Positions 29,573 through 63,555 of a DNA stretch of 64,000 bases are shown in pieces. Both the position numbers and the translations under genes were made by a program. Source of the DNA: Traorella massiliensis (lineage in GTDB: Bacteria > Bacillota_I > Bacilli_A > Erysipelotrichales > Erysipelotrichaceae); contig NZ_LT629969.1 in the NCBI RefSeq assembly GCF_900104665.1, forward strand, positions 976,917 through 1,040,916, given 5' to 3'. Below the pieces are notes generated by a model that was given only the letters and a program-made list of their open reading frames with translations, made no database searches and was not told the origin of the DNA. Position 1 is the first letter of the stretch; each line of letters starts with the position of its first letter.

Positions 29573-31057
29573 CTATAGCTGAATGCGTTCTTTTATGAAT
29601 TCTTTAGGGGATTGCAATTGTTCTATTAAATATTGAATGGAGCCTGTCCAGTTAATAGGAATTGCTTCTTTATAAAAGAGCAGATCCTCTTTTGTAGAGA
29701 TGTAACGTAGCTTTTCTTTAGGATTTCGTATGACTTGTACTACTATAGTTTTAGATGTATAAAGGTTTTTGCTATCGTGAGCAGTATATGTTACTTCGTA
29801 TTGACCTAATTTAGATGTGTTGACAACTCCCTGATATGTCAGTGTGCTTGAAACATCTCCATCCTGTTTATCATAGGCAGAGACATTAGTAAGATAATTA
29901 AACTCATCGTACTGGTAGAGTGTAACATCTTCTGCACTGATTACTGGTGGCGTATTCCCTTCTACAACTGTAACATGAAGTGTATTTTCTGCTTTCTTTC
30001 CATCCTGATCTTTCACTTGAAGCAATAAATCATATTCTCCTGGTTTAGATATATCAACCTGCTGTACAAGCGTTACTTTATTAGTAAGCAGACCATCTTC
30101 AGGATCACTGGCTTTTATGTAATTTTTGAAATTAAAATCATCTGTCTGTAATGTTGTTATGGTTGGATGTTCTAGAATATCGATAACGGGTGGCTGATTT
30201 GTATCTATCACCTTGATTTTCAAGGCCTCTCCAGAAAAATCTACCCAGTTCCCGGCAATCCATGAATCATATGTAGTTCCTTCAGAAACAACATTCCTTC
30301 CTAATTTACATACAGTTGCAGCTCCAGTTTTTACTTTATAGTATACCGTTGATTCATTGACATATCGATCATAAACATGAGTATATACACTTCCCTCATC
30401 AAAAAATCGATTATAACCATATATCGCATTACACAAAGTAGACGTCTGTCTGATTTTAGAATTTTTTGCTGGCTGTATACGTTCAAAAACTGCATAATCA
30501 GCTATGGTAAGCTGTGTTTCATATAAATTTGAAGAAACTTGATATTCAATCTTTCCTTTTTTTTGTATAACAGGTGTAAGTATCGGATAGAATACATCAG
30601 TATATTTAGTAAATCCTAAAATATTTGAATGTACTGCTAATTTTGCTTCATAGATTTCATCGATCTTTAAATTTCTTAATGGAATTTCAAATGAGAAGCC
30701 AACATAATCATAATTGTAGTAACAGGTTCCTCCCTGTTTATAAAATTCATTTGCATTACATTTTCTTACATTTAAAACTCTCATTGTATTTGTTTGTGAA
30801 TTGTATAATGGCTCTGAATGAAAAGTAACCTGATCGTGATCTGAAGTTAAAATCAATGAATAGTCATGTGTTGTTGTTGAATTGTAATGGTGACTATTTA
30901 CAGCCATACCCCACCCTTCGATTTTAATAGAAGTGTTCGTAATCTTAACTGATGTAATTTCAAAAGGAAAATTCTTTTTATCAGTTGAAGATGCCTTGAC
31001 AGGTAAAGAAAATAAGATCATGAATGTAAATAAAAATAGTAGAAAAGTTTTTTTCAT
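29573..31057 (-). CDS. Secreted protein with two Ig-like/cadherin-like domains
   Basis: A 494-residue exported protein of unknown function. It has a clear signal peptide (KTFLLFLFTFMILFSLPVKAS), an unrecognised beta-rich N-terminal region with a Cys pair (CNANEFYKQGGTC), a middle region with further Cys, and two tandem DUF5011-like Ig folds at about 295-385 (SDPEDGLLTNKV) and 386-465 (YDKQDGDVSSTL). There is no LPXTG anchor or C-terminal membrane segment, so it is released or held by other contacts. Its promoter and leader nearly copy those of the comG operon, suggesting expression during competence. Confidence 0.75.
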   Translation of the reverse strand: MKKTFLLFLFTFMILFSLPVKASSTDKKNFPFEITSVKITNTSIKIEGWGMAVNSHHYNSTTTHDYSLILTSDHDQVTFHSEPLYNSQTNTMRVLNVRKCNANEFYKQGGTCYYNYDYVGFSFEIPLRNLKIDEIYEAKLAVHSNILGFTKYTDVFYPILTPVIQKKGKIEYQVSSNLYETQLTIADYAVFERIQPAKNSKIRQTSTLCNAIYGYNRFFDEGSVYTHVYDRYVNESTVYYKVKTGAATVCKLGRNVVSEGTTYDSWIAGNWVDFSGEALKIKVIDTNQPPVIDILEHPTITTLQTDDFNFKNYIKASDPEDGLLTNKVTLVQQVDISKPGEYDLLLQVKDQDGKKAENTLHVTVVEGNTPPVISAEDVTLYQYDEFNYLTNVSAYDKQDGDVSSTLTYQGVVNTSKLGQYEVTYTAHDSKNLYTSKTIVVQVIRNPKEKLRYISTKEDLLFYKEAIPINWTGSIQYLIEQLQSPKEFIKERIQL

Positions 31058-31062
31058 AAAAT

Positions 31063-31107
31063 CCCTCCTACTATTTTATATGCATCAAATTTTAAAATTT
31101 CCCAAAA
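31063..31107 (-). promoter_or_regulatory. comG-like promoter of the secreted Ig-like gene
   Basis: Read on the minus strand: TTTTGGGAAA, 11 bases, GATGCATATA, then AAATAGTAGGAGGGATT up to the start codon. The GGGAAA box is at 31098-31103 and GATGCATATA at 31077-31086. Spacing and both boxes are identical to those before comGA (45127-45171). No sigma-A -35 is present. Confidence 0.7.
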
Positions 31108-41289: not shown

Positions 41290-41317
41290 ATTGTAATGAA
41301 TTTATGCCTTTTGTCAA
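41290..41317 (-). promoter_or_regulatory. Sigma-A promoter of efp
   Basis: On the minus strand TTGACA, 16 bases, TACAAT, overlapping the stop codon of the upstream membrane gene. Confidence 0.75.
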
Positions 41318-41673
41318 TCTTTTTGAAAGGATTTGATCTGAATTCTTTGAGAACATCCAACATTAACAGCAGCGATAAAAATAGCACTAAATAAGATCAT
41401 GAGCTGATCCGAGTTCAATGCAATATGAAACAAAAGACACAATAAATAAAAGATAAACATAAAACATATCGAAAACATCAGATCTTTGAATTCAAGCATC
41501 CGGCCATTTATTTCATAATATTGAATGATCATCATCTGATACAATGAAAATAAAAGAATGATCAATAAGATAGAGATCTCAAAAAAGCCAGCCATAATAA
41601 AAGGTATCAAGATAAGCGATAATAAAATAGAGGCAGCAATATTTTTCCACATACTGATAGTATGTTCATTCAT
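41314..41673 (-). CDS. Small membrane protein at the end of the comG operon
   Basis: A hydrophobic protein of about 119 residues with four predicted membrane segments; not recognised. Its start overlaps the end of the comGG-like gene (ATGs at 41682, 41676 and 41673 are all possible; no clear ribosome binding site). It is therefore probably translated by coupling and expressed with the competence pilus genes. A role in pilus assembly is possible but not shown. Confidence 0.65.
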   Translation of the reverse strand: MNEHTISMWKNIAASILLSLILIPFIMAGFFEISILLIILLFSLYQMMIIQYYEINGRMLEFKDLMFSICFMFIFYLLCLLFHIALNSDQLMILFSAIFIAAVNVGCSQRIQIKSFQKD

Positions 41674-42052
41674 CATAAACATATTCTATTGAAGCGATAC
41701 ATAAATAAACTTCATCATATTGAATGATCATCTGAAAATGAACTTTTCCACTAAAATCAAGCGTACACTGGCTATCCTCATAAACTGCATTCACTGTAAT
41801 TCCTTTTTCCTCAAAAACAAAATCTTCACAACACTGATCATAAAATTCGTTTTTGATGCGTCGAATTACTTTGATCTTAACCACTTCAAGATCAGCATCC
41901 ATATTATTTAAGGCCGTAAGATGAGCTAATTGTAGAGAAAAATAAATACCTAAGGCTGCTAATAGATTGAAAAGACCTAGAGTGAGTATCAACGCATTCC
42001 CTTTTTCAGTTGCAGCCAAGAAAGCGTTCTTTTCTTTTATTATTCTTTTCAT
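41666..42052 (-). CDS. comGG: ComGG-like minor pilin component
   Basis: A 128-residue protein in the comGG position. The N-terminus KNAFLAATEKGNALILTLGLF, with a long hydrophobic helix after it, resembles the Glu-containing pilin-like start of ComGG, and the remainder is a short globular part. The start at 42052 lies inside the end of comGF. Sequence similarity in this family is low, so the name rests on position and layout. Confidence 0.7.
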   Translation of the reverse strand: MKRIIKEKNAFLAATEKGNALILTLGLFNLLAALGIYFSLQLAHLTALNNMDADLEVVKIKVIRRIKNEFYDQCCEDFVFEEKGITVNAVYEDSQCTLDFSGKVHFQMIIQYDEVYLCIASIEYVYDE

Positions 42053-42404
42053 AACTGATATAAAAGCAGTCTTTTTTCTGCGTAAAATAACTCTTTTCAA
42101 TATCTTCCATATAGATTACATAACCATCTTTACGTACAATTCTATTTTTCTCTAAAACAAGACTTGCTTCTTTTTCAAAATAAAAGAAATTTAATTCATC
42201 TTCATTATATTGAATCTCACTGGCATAAAGAAGAAGCTGACGAAGCTGATATAAGGCAATCTCATCTTCAATATCCACATGAATATCTTGAAGACGATGG
42301 ATAAGAGGGATAGACATAGTTAAAAGAGCCATTGAAAGTGAGAAGATAAAAAGGCTTAAAAGCATTTCAATCATCGTATATCCTTTACTGGTGGGCTTCT
42401 TCAT
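42006..42404 (-). CDS. comGF: ComGF-like minor pseudopilin
   Basis: A 132-residue pseudopilin. The N-terminus KKPTSKGYTMIEMLLSLFIF has the class III prepilin pattern: a basic leader, Gly-Tyr-Thr, Glu at +5, then a hydrophobic helix. The C-terminal part is beta-rich. The start at 42404 is assigned from the leader; the frame overlaps comGE. It is part of the DNA-uptake pilus. Confidence 0.8.
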   Translation of the reverse strand: MKKPTSKGYTMIEMLLSLFIFSLSMALLTMSIPLIHRLQDIHVDIEDEIALYQLRQLLLYASEIQYNEDELNFFYFEKEASLVLEKNRIVRKDGYVIYMEDIEKSYFTQKKDCFYISYEKNNKRKERFLGCN

Positions 42405-42540
42405 ATATCTGATCTTGATTGATCTCATACTGTTCGATCCTTTCAATATAACCGGTAATGATCAATAAATAATTGATGATAAGTAAGACGGCACTAAAAA
42501 AAAGTAAATTTTCTAGTAAGCTATGACCTTTTTCATTCAT
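42385..42540 (-). CDS. comGE: ComGE-like minor pseudopilin (short)
   Basis: Only 51 residues: NEKGHSLLENLLFFSAVLL gives the prepilin-type leader (Gly then His-Ser, Glu at +5) and hydrophobic helix, with a short tail. It is shorter than typical ComGE proteins. RBS GGTGGA at 9 bases. It overlaps comGD and comGF. Confidence 0.65.
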   Translation of the reverse strand: MNEKGHSLLENLLFFSAVLLIINYLLIITGYIERIEQYEINQDQIYEEAHQ

Positions 42541-42907
42541 CGCTGATCCACCCGCTTCCAAGCTGAAAAACCGCTTCATATTCACCGCATCTCATCGTAA
42601 AAGCTTTTGAGATATTTCCTTGTTCATTGTAGTGAAAAATTATTGGATCACAGATAAGAGGTGAAATTACATACTCTTTATCATTAATGGTTACTTTGTT
42701 TTTATCGATTTGAATGTCATGCCTTTGCTGAAGGCGAATACTGTCAAGCTGACTTTGACGTAACAGTGCTTTTAATGCTTTAAAACGCAGATAAGAAGCG
42801 TCGGGGATATGTTTGATCGATAATAATGTCATGACGCTCACACATGAAAGCACCAATATCATTTCAATGAGCGTATATCCTTTATTCCTGAACACTTGCC
42901 TGACCAT
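42533..42907 (-). CDS. comGD: ComGD-like minor pseudopilin
   Basis: A 124-residue pseudopilin. The leader and helix RNKGYTLIEMILVLSCVSVM fit prepilin peptidase cleavage after Gly, with Glu at +5. A GspH-like globular part follows with two Cys (LICDP, MRCGE). It overlaps comGC by 26 bases, so translation is coupled. Confidence 0.8.
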   Translation of the reverse strand: MVRQVFRNKGYTLIEMILVLSCVSVMTLLSIKHIPDASYLRFKALKALLRQSQLDSIRLQQRHDIQIDKNKVTINDKEYVISPLICDPIIFHYNEQGNISKAFTMRCGEYEAVFQLGSGWISDE

Positions 42908-43178
42908 TGACGATTTCGATCATAGAACCATTGGGGCAACGATTCTGCCCTTCCTTTAAATAACCCCCTTCAATGAGATCACTAATCGAATCAGGAGTCA
43001 CGAGATTTTCAACTTCATAAAGTAATATCTGTGAATCTACAACGCTAGTAAGAGCTTCGCATCCTTTTGTTTGGATGATCTTATTTTTTTGCTGGATATT
43101 AGGTAGGGTAATTAGAAAAATCAAAGAAATGACAGATAAAACAAGAATCATTTCTAACACAGTAAAGCCTTTTTTCAT
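42882..43178 (-). CDS. comGC: ComGC major pseudopilin
   Basis: Main subunit of the competence pilus (98 residues). Leader MKKGFTVLEMILVLSVISLI shows the cleavage site Gly-Phe-Thr and Glu at +5. The C-terminal YEVENLVTPDSISDLIEGGYL is typical of ComGC, as is the QNRCPNGS end. RBS AAAGGAGGA. Confidence 0.92.
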   Translation of the reverse strand: MKKGFTVLEMILVLSVISLIFLITLPNIQQKNKIIQTKGCEALTSVVDSQILLYEVENLVTPDSISDLIEGGYLKEGQNRCPNGSMIEIVNGQASVQE

Positions 43179-43193
43179 ATCATTTTCCTCCTT

Positions 43194-44165
43194 TTACATT
43201 TGATGAATCATATCTAATGGCAGTAATAATAACTGATAAATAGATATAACAAGAATTGCAATTAACATATAAGCCATTCCACTGACAATTTTTGATGATA
43301 TCTTTAATAATTTCTTAAATTCATTTCTTTGAAATTCACAGTAATCATTTAAGATGTTTTCTAAATTTTGGGTATAATACCCCATTTTAAAAAACTGTTT
43401 AAAAGTTGAATCAAGATAAGACTGATTTTCAATTACACGCAGCATTTCTTCTCCCTGTTTTAATTTGAGCATCATATCTTGGATATTGATCTGAAGGAAG
43501 GTATTGTTTTTTAGTTTTGTCAGAGATTCTAGAATCTGCTTGGTCGAATAGCCTCTTTTCATGAGAATCAGTGCATGAAGTGCAAAATCATAAGAGATGA
43601 TTTTTTTAATCAGAAAAAAATGTCCAAGATAGTTAAGATAAAACTGCTGATAATTTTCTTTCTTGCATTTTTTCATGATCAGAAGAAATATCAATAAAAA
43701 TGATCCAATCACAAATAAAGCTACAACGATGCTTAAAATGAAATATAAAAGCTGATGAAGCTGAAATCCCTTTTGAGCATCGATCATCATGCTTAATTGA
43801 GGATAGATTTGTATTTCAAAGAAAATAAAGACCATTAATGAAAAAAATAATACAAATAATGGATAAGTAGTTTCTTTTAACCAATTTTCACGCATTTGCT
43901 TTTTGACTTTATGATATTCGTAAGCAGAGAGAATTGCCTGATCTAAGGAAGAGATTTCCATAAAAAACCGGAGGGATGTGTAAAAAGGATCCTTCGAATG
44001 AAAATCAATGAATTGTTGAAAATCATTTCCTTGTTCTAATTGCTTCTCAATTTCTTCATAACGTCCTAGAATCATAAGTGATGATGAAAGGGAATATCCT
44101 TTATGTAGAAGAAGTGAAATTTGAATGAGATCTTCTTTAGAAATCGTTGAGGTCGATCTTCGCAT
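43194..44165 (-). CDS. comGB: ComGB pilus assembly membrane protein
   Basis: A PilC/GspF-family inner-membrane platform protein (about 323 residues) with two GspF domains and three or so membrane segments (WLKETTYPLFVLFFSLMVFI, then FILSIVVALFVIGSFLLIFL). The C-terminal half has MKRGYSTKQILESL and MGYYTQNLENILNDYCEFQ. The start is uncertain: Met at 44165 gives a short overlap with comGA, Met at 44210 a longer one; neither has a clear ribosome binding site. Confidence 0.85.
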   Translation of the reverse strand: MRRSTSTISKEDLIQISLLLHKGYSLSSSLMILGRYEEIEKQLEQGNDFQQFIDFHSKDPFYTSLRFFMEISSLDQAILSAYEYHKVKKQMRENWLKETTYPLFVLFFSLMVFIFFEIQIYPQLSMMIDAQKGFQLHQLLYFILSIVVALFVIGSFLLIFLLIMKKCKKENYQQFYLNYLGHFFLIKKIISYDFALHALILMKRGYSTKQILESLTKLKNNTFLQINIQDMMLKLKQGEEMLRVIENQSYLDSTFKQFFKMGYYTQNLENILNDYCEFQRNEFKKLLKISSKIVSGMAYMLIAILVISIYQLLLLPLDMIHQM

Positions 44166-45123
44166 CACTTGGACGAATGATTTTCTTTCTGATGGCTTCT
44201 CTGATTTCATCTTGAATCGTTTTATGATTTTCATTTTTGCCATATTCAAGGTAATTCTGAAGCTCTTGCCGGTCAAGAATTTCATAAATGCAAATTCGCT
44301 CCTTTCTTTTGATATCAGGATAAAGACGCTGATTGACAACTGCTGTAAGCGTCTCTTTTAAATTGGAAGTAGAAAGTCCTAATTCTGAGAGTCTTTTTAT
44401 AGCTTCTGTAGCACTTTTCGCATGGATCGTAGAAAATACCAAATGACCACTCAAAGCAGCTCTATAAACCATTTCTGCACATTTTGGATCTCTAATCTCA
44501 CCGATCATGATCACATCCGGATCATGGCGTAATAACTGTTTGATACCTTCCTCATATGTAAAGTTCATTTTCTCATTGACTTGCAGCTGAAGATAATTAG
44601 AATTCACGATTTCGATAGGATCTTCCAAAGTAATGATTTTTAATTTCTTTTGTCTGGCAATTTCTTCAAGCAAGGCATGTAAGGTTGTAGTTTTACCACT
44701 TCCAGTTGGTCCACTGAATAGAATCAGACCACTCCTTAAAGAGCACCAGCGCTTAAATTGAGCATTCTGTGTTTTCTTTGTAGAACATTGGTGAATGGAT
44801 ATCGGCGGATGATTATTTAAAATACGTAAAACTCCTGTTTGACTCTGATAAGAAGAAATACAAGAAAAACGAAAATAATAATTTTTATCTTGAAAGTTCA
44901 TCTGAAAGGTACCAGATTGTGGAATCGCTAAATTACCTAAATCAAGATTTGCACAATATTTTAGATACTGAAATAATGCCTCAATTTGTTCATCCTCAAA
45001 TGATTTAAAACCACTAATGCCACGCATCTCACAAGAATTTCTCCTATTTGAAATCAAAAAATGAATATCTGTAGCCTTTACTTTTTGTGATTCAAAAATC
45101 AAACGATACAATATCTTCTTCAT
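44137..45123 (-). CDS. comGA: ComGA pilus assembly ATPase
   Basis: A GspE/PilB-type hexameric ATPase (328 residues) that drives assembly of the DNA-uptake pilus. Walker A is FSGPTGSGKTTTLHALL near residue 140, the Asp box ITLEDPIEI follows, Walker B is MIGEIRDPKCAEM and the His box is STIHAKSATEAI. The N-terminal domain has KATDIHFL. It is the first gene of the comG operon and is preceded by an unusual promoter shared with a distant gene. RBS AGTAGGAGGG. Confidence 0.95.
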   Translation of the reverse strand: MKKILYRLIFESQKVKATDIHFLISNRRNSCEMRGISGFKSFEDEQIEALFQYLKYCANLDLGNLAIPQSGTFQMNFQDKNYYFRFSCISSYQSQTGVLRILNNHPPISIHQCSTKKTQNAQFKRWCSLRSGLILFSGPTGSGKTTTLHALLEEIARQKKLKIITLEDPIEIVNSNYLQLQVNEKMNFTYEEGIKQLLRHDPDVIMIGEIRDPKCAEMVYRAALSGHLVFSTIHAKSATEAIKRLSELGLSTSNLKETLTAVVNQRLYPDIKRKERICIYEILDRQELQNYLEYGKNENHKTIQDEIREAIRKKIIRPSDAKIDLNDF

Positions 45124-45126
45124 AAT

Positions 45127-45171
45127 CCCTCCTACTATTATATATGCATCAAAATCTCATTTTTCCCAAAA
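45127..45171 (-). promoter_or_regulatory. Unusual promoter of the comG operon
   Basis: On the minus strand TTTTGGGAAA, 11 bases, GATGCATATA (45141-45150), then TAATAGTAGGAGGGATT to the start. It copies the layout before the gene at 29573-31057. GATGCATA agrees with the streptococcal com-box TACGAATA at five of eight positions, so a competence sigma factor is a candidate reader. Confidence 0.7.
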
Positions 45172-60379: not shown

Positions 60380-60392
60380 ATTAAGCAAGTGG
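60361..60392 (-). terminator. Terminator of recO
   Basis: CCACTTG with CAAGTGG then T5 on the minus strand; the 14-base loop contains the glyQS -35. Confidence 0.7.
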
Positions 60393-61100
60393 CTGTAAAA
60401 CTTCTAAAAATGAATGGCTGCGAATCGTGATTTCTCCATAGCGATGCAAAAGCTCAACAAGATAACTCACAGACTCATAAGAAAGCGAAGAAGCCTCTTC
60501 TAAAGCAGGATAGTTTTCAAGTGAAGCATGTACAACATAACGCAAATTCTTTAGCTCATCCACACTTAAATGATGGTGACGCATCTTATCAAAACAATGC
60601 ACGCAGACAAATCCACCATCCGGAATCGATAAAGCACATAATCCTTTTGACGAAGAACAAAGCACACACTCATCTACAACAAGCGAAACACCGCTTGAAT
60701 GCATTACTTGACATAAAAGCAGTGCATAGATACAGTATGGGTTAATACAACGATTTAATATTTCAATATACTGAATCGCTTCATCAAAAGTTATATCGAT
60801 CTTATTCATGATCTCAAGAAAACATGAATAAATACTTTTACGTATCAAATCATTTTCAATATTTAAAAAACGTTTCACCATTTCTGCGTTTTTTAATAAC
60901 AATACTTTAGAATTATTTTTATCAATCGTATGAAACAGACTATAACATCCTATTTCTGTATAATTACGATTTTTCGAATGCGTCTTTAAGACACCCTTCG
61001 CCTTCATGCTCACTTTTCCAGAAGGTGTCAGTACATTCATGATTACATCATGATCATGAATGATCGTATTACTTAAAACAATTCCTTTAAAATCACTCAT
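60381..61100 (-). CDS. recO: DNA repair protein RecO
   Basis: A recombination mediator (239 residues) that loads RecA with RecR and anneals strands. It has the N-terminal OB fold (FKGIVLSNTIIHDHDVIMNV) and a four-Cys zinc site (CVLCSSSKGLC and CVHC) near 140-170. The start at 61100 overlaps the era stop by 8 bases and follows GGTGAG; a longer frame to 61118 is less likely. Confidence 0.9.
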   Translation of the reverse strand: MSDFKGIVLSNTIIHDHDVIMNVLTPSGKVSMKAKGVLKTHSKNRNYTEIGCYSLFHTIDKNNSKVLLLKNAEMVKRFLNIENDLIRKSIYSCFLEIMNKIDITFDEAIQYIEILNRCINPYCIYALLLCQVMHSSGVSLVVDECVLCSSSKGLCALSIPDGGFVCVHCFDKMRHHHLSVDELKNLRYVVHASLENYPALEEASSLSYESVSYLVELLHRYGEITIRSHSFLEVLQPLA

Positions 61101-61980
61101 CCAGCTCACCAATTCCAAACTGATGAATCTTGCTCTCCTTGTTGCGCCAGTTCTCTTCTACACGCACATATAATTCTAATTCAACTCTTTTACCAAGAAT
61201 AAAACGTAATTCCTTTTGAGCATCTAAACGTATGGAAGCAATCATTTTTCCCTGCTTACCGATCAATATTCCCTTCTGGCTTGCACGTTCAACGATAACT
61301 AATGCTTGAATATAAACTTTATTTTCACTTTCCTCTTTATTTTCGATAACAACAGCTACCGAATGAGGAATTTCTTCCTGTGTCCGATAAATGATTTTTT
61401 CACGAATTAATTCACTGATCAAAAAATTCTGATCATGATCACAAACCGTTTCACTGTCAAAATACATAGGCCCTTCTGAAAGATATTTCTTTGTCGTTGT
61501 AATCAATTCATCAACATTACGTCTTTCAAGTGCACTTAATGGAAATATTTCTTTAAAATCAGCACGTTTTTGCCACTGTAAAATTAACTGCATGACTTTA
61601 TCACGTGATAAAAGATCTGCTTTATTTAAAATAAGAAAGATGTTCTCAGATTTTCCTTTGATTTGATTGAGCACAAATTCTTCACCATGTCCAAAAGGCA
61701 CCGAAGCATCCACCATATAATAAATGACATCGACATCCTGTAAAGAGGCATATGCACTTTTATTCAGTGTACGTCCTAATTCATGATGCGGTTTATGTAT
61801 TCCTGGCGTGTCAATAAAGATCATCTGTGAATCATGATCGCTTAAGATACCCTGAATATTATTACGCGTAGTCTGCGGTTTACTTGAGATAATAGCCAGT
61901 TTTTGGTTCATGATACTATTTAACAGGGTACTTTTACCGGCATTCGGTCTGCCTACGATCGCAATAAATCCGCTCTTCAT
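61093..61980 (-). CDS. era: GTPase Era
   Basis: A ribosome assembly GTPase that binds the 16S rRNA 3' end (295 residues). G1 is GRPNAGKSTLLNSI near residue 9, G3 DTPGIHKP, G4 NKAD, and the KH domain includes GILIGKQGKMIASIRLDA. It lies directly after cdd (one base) and overlaps recO, the usual ybeY-dgkA-cdd-era-recO order. Confidence 0.97.
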   Translation of the reverse strand: MKSGFIAIVGRPNAGKSTLLNSIMNQKLAIISSKPQTTRNNIQGILSDHDSQMIFIDTPGIHKPHHELGRTLNKSAYASLQDVDVIYYMVDASVPFGHGEEFVLNQIKGKSENIFLILNKADLLSRDKVMQLILQWQKRADFKEIFPLSALERRNVDELITTTKKYLSEGPMYFDSETVCDHDQNFLISELIREKIIYRTQEEIPHSVAVVIENKEESENKVYIQALVIVERASQKGILIGKQGKMIASIRLDAQKELRFILGKRVELELYVRVEENWRNKESKIHQFGIGELDE

Positions 61981-61981
61981 C

Positions 61982-62377
61982 TTACAGATCCTCTTGGGTA
62001 AAGCTCATTGGGAGGAGCTCTTCAATCGTTGTTTCAGTCTGCGAAGTACGGTTAGCCAGATAAATAGGCGTATCTTTGTTTAACAGTTCAACTAAGACCT
62101 GACGGCAGGCACCACATGGAGCAGCGATCGTCTTCCCTTCACAAACGATGGCTAACGCCTTGATATCGTCTTTTCGAACACCATTCGAATATGCTGCGAA
62201 AACAGCATTTCTTTCAGCACAGTTAGATAAGCCATAAGAGGCATTTTCTATATTTGCCCCGTCATAATAATCACCATTGAAGGTTTCAACACATGCTCCT
62301 ACCCGGTAATTAGAATAAGGTGCATAAGCATTTTCTAAATTCTTAAAAGCTCTTTCTACCAATTTTTGATCAATCAT
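61982..62377 (-). CDS. cdd: Cytidine deaminase
   Basis: Deaminates cytidine and deoxycytidine to uridine forms in pyrimidine salvage (131 residues). The zinc-binding motif is CAERNAVFAA (Cys53, catalytic Glu55) with PCGACRQVL. The start at 62377 is used because of AAAGGAG and because it overlaps the dgkA stop in ATGA; the frame is open to 62443 inside dgkA. Confidence 0.95.
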   Translation of the reverse strand: MIDQKLVERAFKNLENAYAPYSNYRVGACVETFNGDYYDGANIENASYGLSNCAERNAVFAAYSNGVRKDDIKALAIVCEGKTIAAPCGACRQVLVELLNKDTPIYLANRTSQTETTIEELLPMSFTQEDL

Positions 62378-62718
62378 CGCAATACTCCTTTCAGGATCAT
62401 ACATCCTATCACAACTGCATAGAAACTGGCAAGCAGGACACATCCGGCACTGAGATCTTTGATATACTTAATTTTTGGATTGATGCGCAAATCAACAAGA
62501 TCACAAAGACGTTCAATGGCCGTATTTACCATTTCACATAAAACAACGATAAAGATACAGCTGATGATCCAAAGCCATTCTTCGCCATTAAACCCATAGA
62601 TCCAGCCAAAAATAAGCACACAAACAGCAAATACCAGCTGAATCTGAATACTTTTATCTTTGCATGCGCTGACAAGCCCGCTAAAGGCCACCGCAAATTT
62701 CTTAAAAAGTGAAATCAT
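62374..62718 (-). CDS. dgkA: Diacylglycerol/undecaprenol kinase
   Basis: A small membrane kinase (114 residues, three membrane helices). In Gram-positive bacteria this family phosphorylates undecaprenol. The signature CEMVNTAIERLCDLVDL near residue 60 includes the catalytic Glu. It overlaps the end of ybeY by 17 bases and the start of cdd by 4. Confidence 0.94.
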   Translation of the reverse strand: MISLFKKFAVAFSGLVSACKDKSIQIQLVFAVCVLIFGWIYGFNGEEWLWIISCIFIVVLCEMVNTAIERLCDLVDLRINPKIKYIKDLSAGCVLLASFYAVVIGCMILKGVLR

Positions 62719-63151
62719 CTAAAATCACATCCTGCAAAGCAAACATTTCTTTTTCATCTTCATCATTCATGTGATCATATCCTAGAAGATGCAGAAGACC
62801 ATGAGTACATAAAAAGCTGATTTCACGGCACTCGCTGTGACCATATTCTTTTGCCTGTTCACACACGGCATCCACACTGATAAAAATATCTCCCAGTTCC
62901 GCTTCGATCTCTTCCAGCATCATTTCATCTTCACTATCTTTCAATGCAAAACTGATCACATCTGTAGGACGATCGATATTTCGATATGTTTTATTGATGT
63001 TGTGAATTTCACAAGCATCTACTAAAATGATCGATACGTCATAGTCACGATCTATCTTACATACTTCTTTTATTTTTTCAAAAATACTTTGAAATCTTTC
63101 TTCATATACATTCCATTTTTCATCATTTGTCTGATTGATGAGCGTTATCAT
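62702..63151 (-). CDS. ybeY: Endoribonuclease YbeY
   Basis: A zinc endoribonuclease used in 16S rRNA 3' maturation and ribosome quality control (149 residues). The metal motif HGLLHLLGYDH is near residue 115, and NKTYRNIDRPTDVISFAL is the conserved middle part. The start at 63151 follows GAGGTGGA; a longer frame to 63208 overlaps the upstream gene and lacks a site. Confidence 0.95.
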   Translation of the reverse strand: MITLINQTNDEKWNVYEERFQSIFEKIKEVCKIDRDYDVSIILVDACEIHNINKTYRNIDRPTDVISFALKDSEDEMMLEEIEAELGDIFISVDAVCEQAKEYGHSECREISFLCTHGLLHLLGYDHMNDEDEKEMFALQDVILDDFTF

Positions 63152-63174
63152 AGTCCACCTCGAATTCTTTTCTA

Positions 63175-63525
63175 TTATAGCATAAAAATGATAGCTTTCT
63201 TGCTCCAAATCATATAAAAATGTAATTTTGTCATTGTTATATAACCTTTTGCCGGATCAAAAAGCTTTACTTTCTTTTGAATATCTTCAACTAATACATA
63301 ATGACCCTTATGATCAAAACCAATAAATGCGATATAGGGTGTGTTTTTTATGAGATGAAGCGAAGCTACTGCCTGACAAGGCAGCACTTGATTTAACTCT
63401 TCAAACATTACTAACATATTTAAACCATGTTCATCTACCTTTTGTTCACAGTTATCAATCACTTCTTTTAGATCCTGATCTAACAATTCATTTAATCGTT
63501 TTAATACTTCAATACCACAATTCAT
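63175..63525 (-). CDS. Small stand-alone C39-peptidase-like protein
   Basis: A 116-residue protein that resembles the core of a C39 cysteine peptidase, the domain that trims double-glycine leaders from peptides. NCGIEVLKRL at the very N-terminus fits the DCGxACLxM active-site Cys region, GHYVLVEDI carries the His, and KLFDPAKGYITM carries the Asp. The usual upstream Gln part is missing, and there is no ABC transporter part or membrane segment. Start at 63525 from AGTAGGAGGT. Its leader resembles those of comG and the Ig-like gene. It sits between phoH and ybeY, which are normally adjacent, so it looks inserted. Activity is not certain. Confidence 0.6.
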   Translation of the reverse strand: MNCGIEVLKRLNELLDQDLKEVIDNCEQKVDEHGLNMLVMFEELNQVLPCQAVASLHLIKNTPYIAFIGFDHKGHYVLVEDIQKKVKLFDPAKGYITMTKLHFYMIWSKKAIIFML

Positions 63526-63530
63526 AAAAT

Positions 63531-63555
63531 ACCTCCTACTTTTATATATCCATCT
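63531..63555 (-). promoter_or_regulatory. Partial copy of the comG-type promoter
   Basis: On the minus strand GAGATGGATATATAAAAGTAGGAGGT: the -10-like part and leader match those before comGA and the Ig-like gene (one base changed in GATGSATATA), but the GGGAAA box at 11 bases is absent. Confidence 0.45.

Follow-up and report, generated by a model that had tools for sequence, protein, structure and literature searches.

The window (the whole stretch of 64,000 nucleotides of Traorella massiliensis DNA analysed here) carries on its minus strand the comG operon and a gene for a secreted surface protein, and the same promoter-like element precedes both (Table 1). The two open reading frames lie where the first-pass annotation had placed them (29573-31057 and, for comGA, 44137-45123, both minus strand), and the product of the latter matched the NCBIfam ComGA model with an E-value of 1.4e-28 over its first 150 aa, under the model cut-off. 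The pattern described for both genes, GGGAAA followed by exactly 11 bases and GATGCATATA, was observed as described at 45141-45167 and 31077-31103 (both minus strand), and these were the only two copies in the window, with a chance expectation of 0 (100 dinucleotide shuffles). As had also been noted, the leaders of the two genes agree, with AATAGTAGGAGGGATT preceding either start codon, and the 11 bases between the boxes differ. Alignment of 18 sites showed that the full conserved unit exceeds that description, extending to TTTTGGGAAA-N11-GRTGCATATAWAAKAGTAGGAGG, with TGGGAA, TG.ATAT, AA and AGTAGG invariant in all 18. A partial candidate in the window has the -10 part, with no recognisable GGGAAA box at the correct spacing.

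Table 1. Features of the window (positions without prefix) and related features located by contig or locus.
Feature	Position	Strand	Remarks
Putative SigH-type promoter of comG operon	45128..45171	-	47.2 bits, E 4.9e-12, 44-base model
comG promoter, -35	45162-45167 (GGGAAA)	-	TTTTGGGAAA, then 11-base spacer
comG promoter, -10	45141-45150	-	GATGCATATA; conserved start/leader element AATAGTAGGAGG also in promoter
Second promoter copy, upstream of surface-protein gene	31064..31107	-	49.1 bits
Boxes of surface-protein promoter	31098-31103; 31077-31086	-	GGGAAA; GATGCATATA
Partial candidate site, -10 only	63532-63554	-	GATGGATATATAAAAGTAGGAGG, 20.3 bits; present in G058 too
comGA, heads comG operon	44137..45123	-	Competence pilus ATPase; ATG 45123; Pfam T2SSE 233 bits
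Remaining comG operon	41314..44339	-	
comGB	43194-44339	-	T2SSF
comGC	42882-43178	-	Pseudopilin
comGD	42533-42907	-	Pseudopilin
ComGF-like gene	42006-42446	-	Pseudopilin
Two small ORFs in comG operon	41666-42100, 41314-41682	-	
Secreted surface protein	29573..31057	-	494 aa, bacterial Ig-like domains; Pfam Bact_surface_Ig-like 67 bits
Genes behind partial site	60381..63525	-	C39-peptidase-like (116 aa), ybeY, dgkA, cdd, era, recO
Candidate sigma factor	G000 C7:24332-24934	-	201 aa
Full-length ComK homologue	G000 C8:545821-546099 (L281)		40.9 bits, ~164 aa from ATG
Tad/Flp pilus operon	L039 3524-7657	-	
Site before PemK-like gene and spoIIE	G000 C7:91839 (L041)		
Small sigma-like clusters	G000 C7:43699-44916, C8:169631-170483, C8:354379-354926, C9:774763-775457		
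Rpn-like multicopy genes, homology from -35 box	C9:355248, C8:257015, C8:131557, C9:34791; C7:488154, C8:330244, C9:29183, C9:410095; C8:279449, C8:498765		Several of the ten copies truncated
Small RNA family one	G000 C8:216549 (L031), C9:229917 (L117), C9:187215 (L120), C9:632019 (L109), C7:288332 (L045), C7:297010 (L118), C9:444439 (L108)		
Small RNA family two	G000 C7:140229 (L043), C9:149225 (L116), G058 C74:8231 (L274)		

The element had been likened to the streptococcal com-box, and direct counting gave the same match of five of eight positions between GATGCATA and TACGAATA. The com-box goes with a weak -35, whereas the -35 is invariant here, and 'SigH-type' (-35 AGGA/GGGA) is the more fitting description of the promoter. 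Measured against the published sigma-H consensus, RMAGGRWWW-N11-12-RRMGAAW (PMC4754846), GGGAAAW agreed with the AGGRWWW portion at 6 of 7 positions and the AGGAAAA of dprA at all 7, while other genera carry TTTAGG. The -10 departs further, with TGCATAT agreeing with RRMGAAW at 5 of 7 positions (two off) and a spacing of 10, one short of N11-12. Judged from these sequences, the combination of TGCATAT and a spacing of 10 is a derived variant of the classical sigma-H promoter.

The motif was not confined to the two window copies. Allowing up to two mismatches, the core pattern occurred 53 times in the 2.6-Mb genome versus 11 times for a reversed control, and a 44-base sequence model found 39 sites scoring from 49 to 18.9 bits, with the next best match in the whole genome at 12.7 bits. 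Twenty-six of the 39 sites ran within ~13 nt into an ORF of the same orientation (our own count), including the partial window site, where the C39-like gene lies ahead of ybeY-dgkA-cdd-era-recO (dgkA, cdd and era were named by reading the sequence). Genes directly behind sites included comGA, comFA, comEA, dprA and recA, with comFC, comEC and radC reached through operons. The expectation of competence targets raised by the first-pass annotation was thus borne out for comEA(-comEC), comFA(-comFC), dprA and recA but not for ssbB; neither coiA nor ssbB was seen as a target among the genome-wide sites.

The predicted regulon is much broader than competence. Surface proteins were represented by the window gene and a second large surface protein, and a 121-aa protein behind another site heads a Tad-pilus operon, in which Pfam recognised RcpC/CpaB and T2SSE. 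This Tad/Flp operon lies under a competence-type promoter, besides the comG pilus, and the sister species (G058) retains its site. A further site precedes a 57-aa ORF upstream of radC-mreC-mreD; a bacteriocin function of the peptide was considered and rejected, as the radC-mreC-mreD operon argues against it and the peptide had no Pfam match. Another site lies before a PemK-like gene (weak match), followed by a gene reading as spoIIE. G058, G134 and G114 have retained this promoter, with the spoIIE neighbour checked in G058 only among the three, and it is possible that the site links the SigH-like factor to sporulation. Other targets were ORFs of 74 aa (before an ABC transporter) and 27 aa (before murF), a 180-aa protein, and 12 Rpn/PDDEXK-like nuclease genes, some of them truncated. 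Three sites were found 64-84 nt upstream of AbiEi-like, RelE/ParE-like (weak) and possibly RelE-like (by eye) genes, nine preceded small structured RNAs with short ORFs, and one (C8:81359) led to nothing recognisable; small toxin-like or toxin-antitoxin cassettes behind sites numbered ~12.

Rpn proteins are toxin-antitoxin and anti-phage nucleases with C-terminal four-residue repeats (PMC10327210). The PF12784 domain gave three matches in the whole genome, one of them over the cut-off, and all three were at motif sites. A second Rpn-like subfamily was related to the first (BLASTP E 2e-45, 34% identity), with C-terminal four-residue repeats (EQGI) in one member, so that both the domain and the repeats of the Rpn/PDDEXK_2 group are represented; for the Rpn-like proteins, PADLOC gave nothing beyond a weak match to a 'putative invertase'. 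The small RNAs include one family of seven copies, each having a short hydrophobic ORF (e.g. MTPAFICLGGLQLNFLFIILFQLYYENRLAVKECLRLTVLYIRTAKR), a 5'-3' stem over GGAGGGAG and a terminator, and all seven stand behind the SigH-type promoter. A second family behind the promoter has the form AATTGGGCWTTACTT..GTATGTAAGTCCC with a 5'-3' stem and an ORF of 28-32 aa (MVDLIKEIRLLIHSIRRLLEIIIKLSCNKKER). Folding gave 5'-3' closing stems covering GGAGGGAG, and the cassettes resemble type I toxin mRNAs; among the copies scanned, Rfam held no family for these orphan small RNAs.

Within each Rpn-like subfamily the copies are alike from the -35 box on and different upstream, and the promoter therefore appears to travel with the gene. 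This abrupt start of homology, together with the many sites before multicopy families (12 Rpn-like; 7 and 2 small RNA/ORF cassettes), is what would be expected if the copies were mainly a dispersed repeat or mobile cassette and not a regulatory signal. However, the single-copy genes comGA, comFA, comEA, dprA and recA carry the element amid unrelated surroundings, orthologous genes of the sister species have retained it, and a repeat gives no reason to expect the competence set, making this explanation extremely unlikely.

An alternative, competence-type sigma factor with its own regulon had been proposed, with a SigH/ComX-like gene predicted to accompany it, and both gained support from the sites at com genes, dprA and recA and from the presence of a SigH-like gene at the canonical sigH locus. 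The candidate is a diverged sigma-70 protein, and its gene order, cysS-mrnC-rlmB-[sigma]-secE-nusG, corresponds to the sigH position of Bacillota. The protein has the ~200-aa length and the regions 2 and 4 of the sigma-70 family; TIGR02937 aligned from end to end (E 1.4e-10, with 41.1 bits slightly under the cut-off of 42.9), the Pfam sigma domains stayed below threshold, and the closest relative of solved structure was the sigma-H factor 3mzy (E 0.002). A search with PF04542 alone missed the protein, while the full-length SigH model recovered it, aligning along the whole model with 23.4 bits. Against the SigH equivalog model TIGR02859 it scored 22.9 bits, far from the cut-off of 294.8. The sigH gene of Lactobacillus sakei sits at a locus called cysS-nusG, and SigH-like proteins share only 20-30% identity across genera (PMC3364868), so weak similarity together with synteny is how a SigH orthologue would be expected to look. 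For the same reason, the failed equivalog test lowers the confidence that the protein is SigH, not that it works like SigH. Orthologues were present in 84 of 101 good Erysipelotrichaceae genomes, and 29 of the 30 loci inspected had RlmB and NusG as neighbours. The region upstream of the sigma gene contained no copy of the motif, which would have pointed to autoregulation.

The genome also encodes SigA, four sporulation-like factors (SigF/SigE/SigG/SigK-like), two ECF factors and SigI, and the matches to PF08281 were mostly small sigma-like proteins resembling parts of mobile elements. Adjacent pairs or triples of such proteins (140-194 aa) were also observed, probably on integrative elements. 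With several such factors encoded, an ECF factor, SigI or a mobile-element sigma could in principle read the motif, but SigH-family synteny and a precedent in competence are found only for the sigH-locus protein and the -35 fits the SigH consensus, and we regard another sigma as an unlikely reader.

The sister genome contained 31 sites, mostly before the same targets, and its sigma is 78% identical. Across 12 orthologous promoters shared with the sister species, identity was 0.92 in the -35, 0.95 in the -10 and 0.78 in the spacer, and 0.49 in the region 30-60 bases upstream. The promoter of the window's surface-protein gene is kept in the sister species and partially in G114. Outside the genus, TTAGG was observed in 19 of 40 upstream regions of comGA, comFA and dprA (1.8 in shuffles, 3 reversed), mostly 44-48 nt from the start codons, and a bipartite score gave a combined p of 1e-7 for these genomes, which had been selected for carrying the sigma. 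The number of sites fell with sigma identity, from 31 at 78% to 1-2 at ~50% and essentially none below 35%, a trend confounded with relatedness. Since TTAGG stands upstream of com genes in other genera, TTTAGGA appears to be the older, ancestral -35, with the Traorella TTTTGGGAAA as a derived form; dprA of Traorella carries TTTTAGGAAA, coexisting with TTTTGGGAAA at other sites.

The element might instead be read by sigma-A, its -35 being unusual. GGGAAA and a TATAWA taken as -10 are separated by exactly 17 bases (by direct count on the alignment), in a region rich in A+T, but there is no TTGACA, the final base of this -10 is invariantly A and not T, and other genera show the upstream TTTAGG with CATA/GTATA. 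Transcription would moreover begin inside the Shine-Dalgarno, and the invariant TGGGAA and AGTAG blocks and the common competence target set would be left unexplained, so a sigma-A origin seems very unlikely. AGTAGG is retained at sites without a directly following ORF, where it does not serve as Shine-Dalgarno, and at dprA and the 74-aa ORF the Shine-Dalgarno is displaced while AGTAG is retained. Because it is kept under both circumstances, we infer that AGTAG belongs to the start region and is not merely a ribosome site.

In Bacillus, com promoters have a site for the activator ComK and are transcribed by sigma-A, and the genome analysed here encodes a full-length ComK homologue over the model cut-off (Table 1), as do 94 of 146 Erysipelotrichaceae genomes for ComK-like proteins. 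The core could accordingly be a ComK-type activator site with sigma-A transcribing, and the spacer does resemble AAAA-N5-TTTT, perfectly in 4 of 33 cores and with at most one mismatch in 9 of 33 versus 1.5 in shuffles. However, about half of the cores, recA included, lack AAAA-N5-TTTT even at two mismatches, conservation falls on the two flanking boxes and not on the spacer, and the element keeps a set orientation and distance relative to the gene, as a core promoter does. Two genomes with no ComK match (G129 and G036) keep TTAGG upstream of comGA, comFA or dprA (3 of 3 and 1 of 2, respectively). In the ComK regulon such K-boxes occur in pairs. As the AAAA-N5-TTTT box is not conserved inside the core, to which this comparison is confined, and the two genomes without ComK keep TTAGG, ComK is not favoured and we consider it an improbable reader. 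Its presence nevertheless means that sigma-H is not proven to be the sole regulator; S. aureus and Listeria possess both SigH and ComK, the Listeria genome having a ComK homologue, and ComK may act in parallel with or upstream of the SigH-like factor.

On balance, the element probably serves as a core promoter in this Traorella-like Erysipelotrichaceae genome, recognised by a diverged sigma of the SigH/ComX type, namely the 201-aa protein of the sigH locus. The motif, its spread over the genome, its targets and conservation, and the sigma gene with its synteny are direct observations, from which we infer this protein as the reader of the motif, the start sites and transformable cells. In the proposed model the sigma gene would have kept the ancestral sigH position, with rlmB on one side and secE-nusG on the other, and RNA polymerase carrying this sigma would recognise TTTTGGGAAA as -35 and TGCATAT as -10 and start within the conserved AATAGTAG. 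The 5' leader of the mRNA would then measure ~12-20 nt, its first base lying close to the Shine-Dalgarno. Once active, the sigma would turn on the competence pilus (comG), the DNA receptor and channel (comEA-comEC) and the uptake helicase (comFA-comFC), together with DprA, RecA, the RadC operon, the Tad pilus operon, surface proteins and the PemK-like gene ahead of spoIIE. Rpn/PDDEXK-like nucleases, toxin-antitoxin operons and small toxin-like RNAs would respond as well, as a large accessory set. More tentatively, the competence sigma might command the 12 Rpn-like genes, ~9 type-I-toxin-like mRNAs and the toxin-antitoxin operons as cassettes spread from the -35 on, either because toxin-antitoxin elements evolved to switch on at DNA uptake or because the competent state uses them in recombination, defence or kin killing; we hold this to be possible but doubtful.

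If the model is true, a family of abundant gut Bacillota possesses a competence programme driven by SigH, for which the genes can be listed by prediction, and the sigma of the sigH locus is tied to competence in a lineage equipped with sporulation sigma factors as well. It would also illustrate clearly how a promoter can change together with a fast-evolving sigma, and would link competence to Rpn nucleases and toxin-like cassettes. We found no description of natural competence in Erysipelotrichaceae in open-access papers. Competence regulons of the SigH/ComX kind are already known, and what is unusual here is most likely the predicted nuclease- and toxin-rich regulon.

The com-gene promoters carry the signature attributed to the sigma, as expected of a SigH/ComX system. 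Like streptococcal ComX (SigX), the factor proposed here would be a competence sigma with a diverged -10-type signature. The streptococcal ComX regulon includes recA, dprA, radC and com operons. ComX is encoded at a different locus, and the strongly conserved -35 and the limited com-box match set the promoter described here apart.

The sigma-H regulon of Listeria monocytogenes (PMC4754846) is alike in its -35 (AGGA/GGGA), in boxes more conserved than the spacer, and in promoters close to the genes, 19 and 22 nt upstream of comGA and comEA compared with 14-24 nt here. It comprises six promoters versus ~39, its -10 is GAAT in place of TGCATAT, and comF, dprA, recA and the nuclease and toxin-like targets are absent from its list (PMC4754846). 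The SigH proteins of Staphylococcus aureus (PMC3486894) and Lactobacillus sakei (PMC3364868) are also diverged SigH-like factors (~20-30% identity between genera) that drive com genes, and L. sakei shares the cysS-nusG locus. Unlike these, the host here encodes SigF/SigE/SigG/SigK-like factors, has a site before the PemK-like gene and spoIIE, uses a different promoter sequence, and adds Tad-pilus, Rpn-like and toxin-like targets. With the described Rpn (PDDEXK_2) nucleases (PMC10327210, PMC5350276) the Rpn-like proteins have in common an E-x-Q motif and the C-terminal four-residue repeats, but here they are multicopy and stand behind a competence-type promoter, with a nuclease role predicted from sequence.
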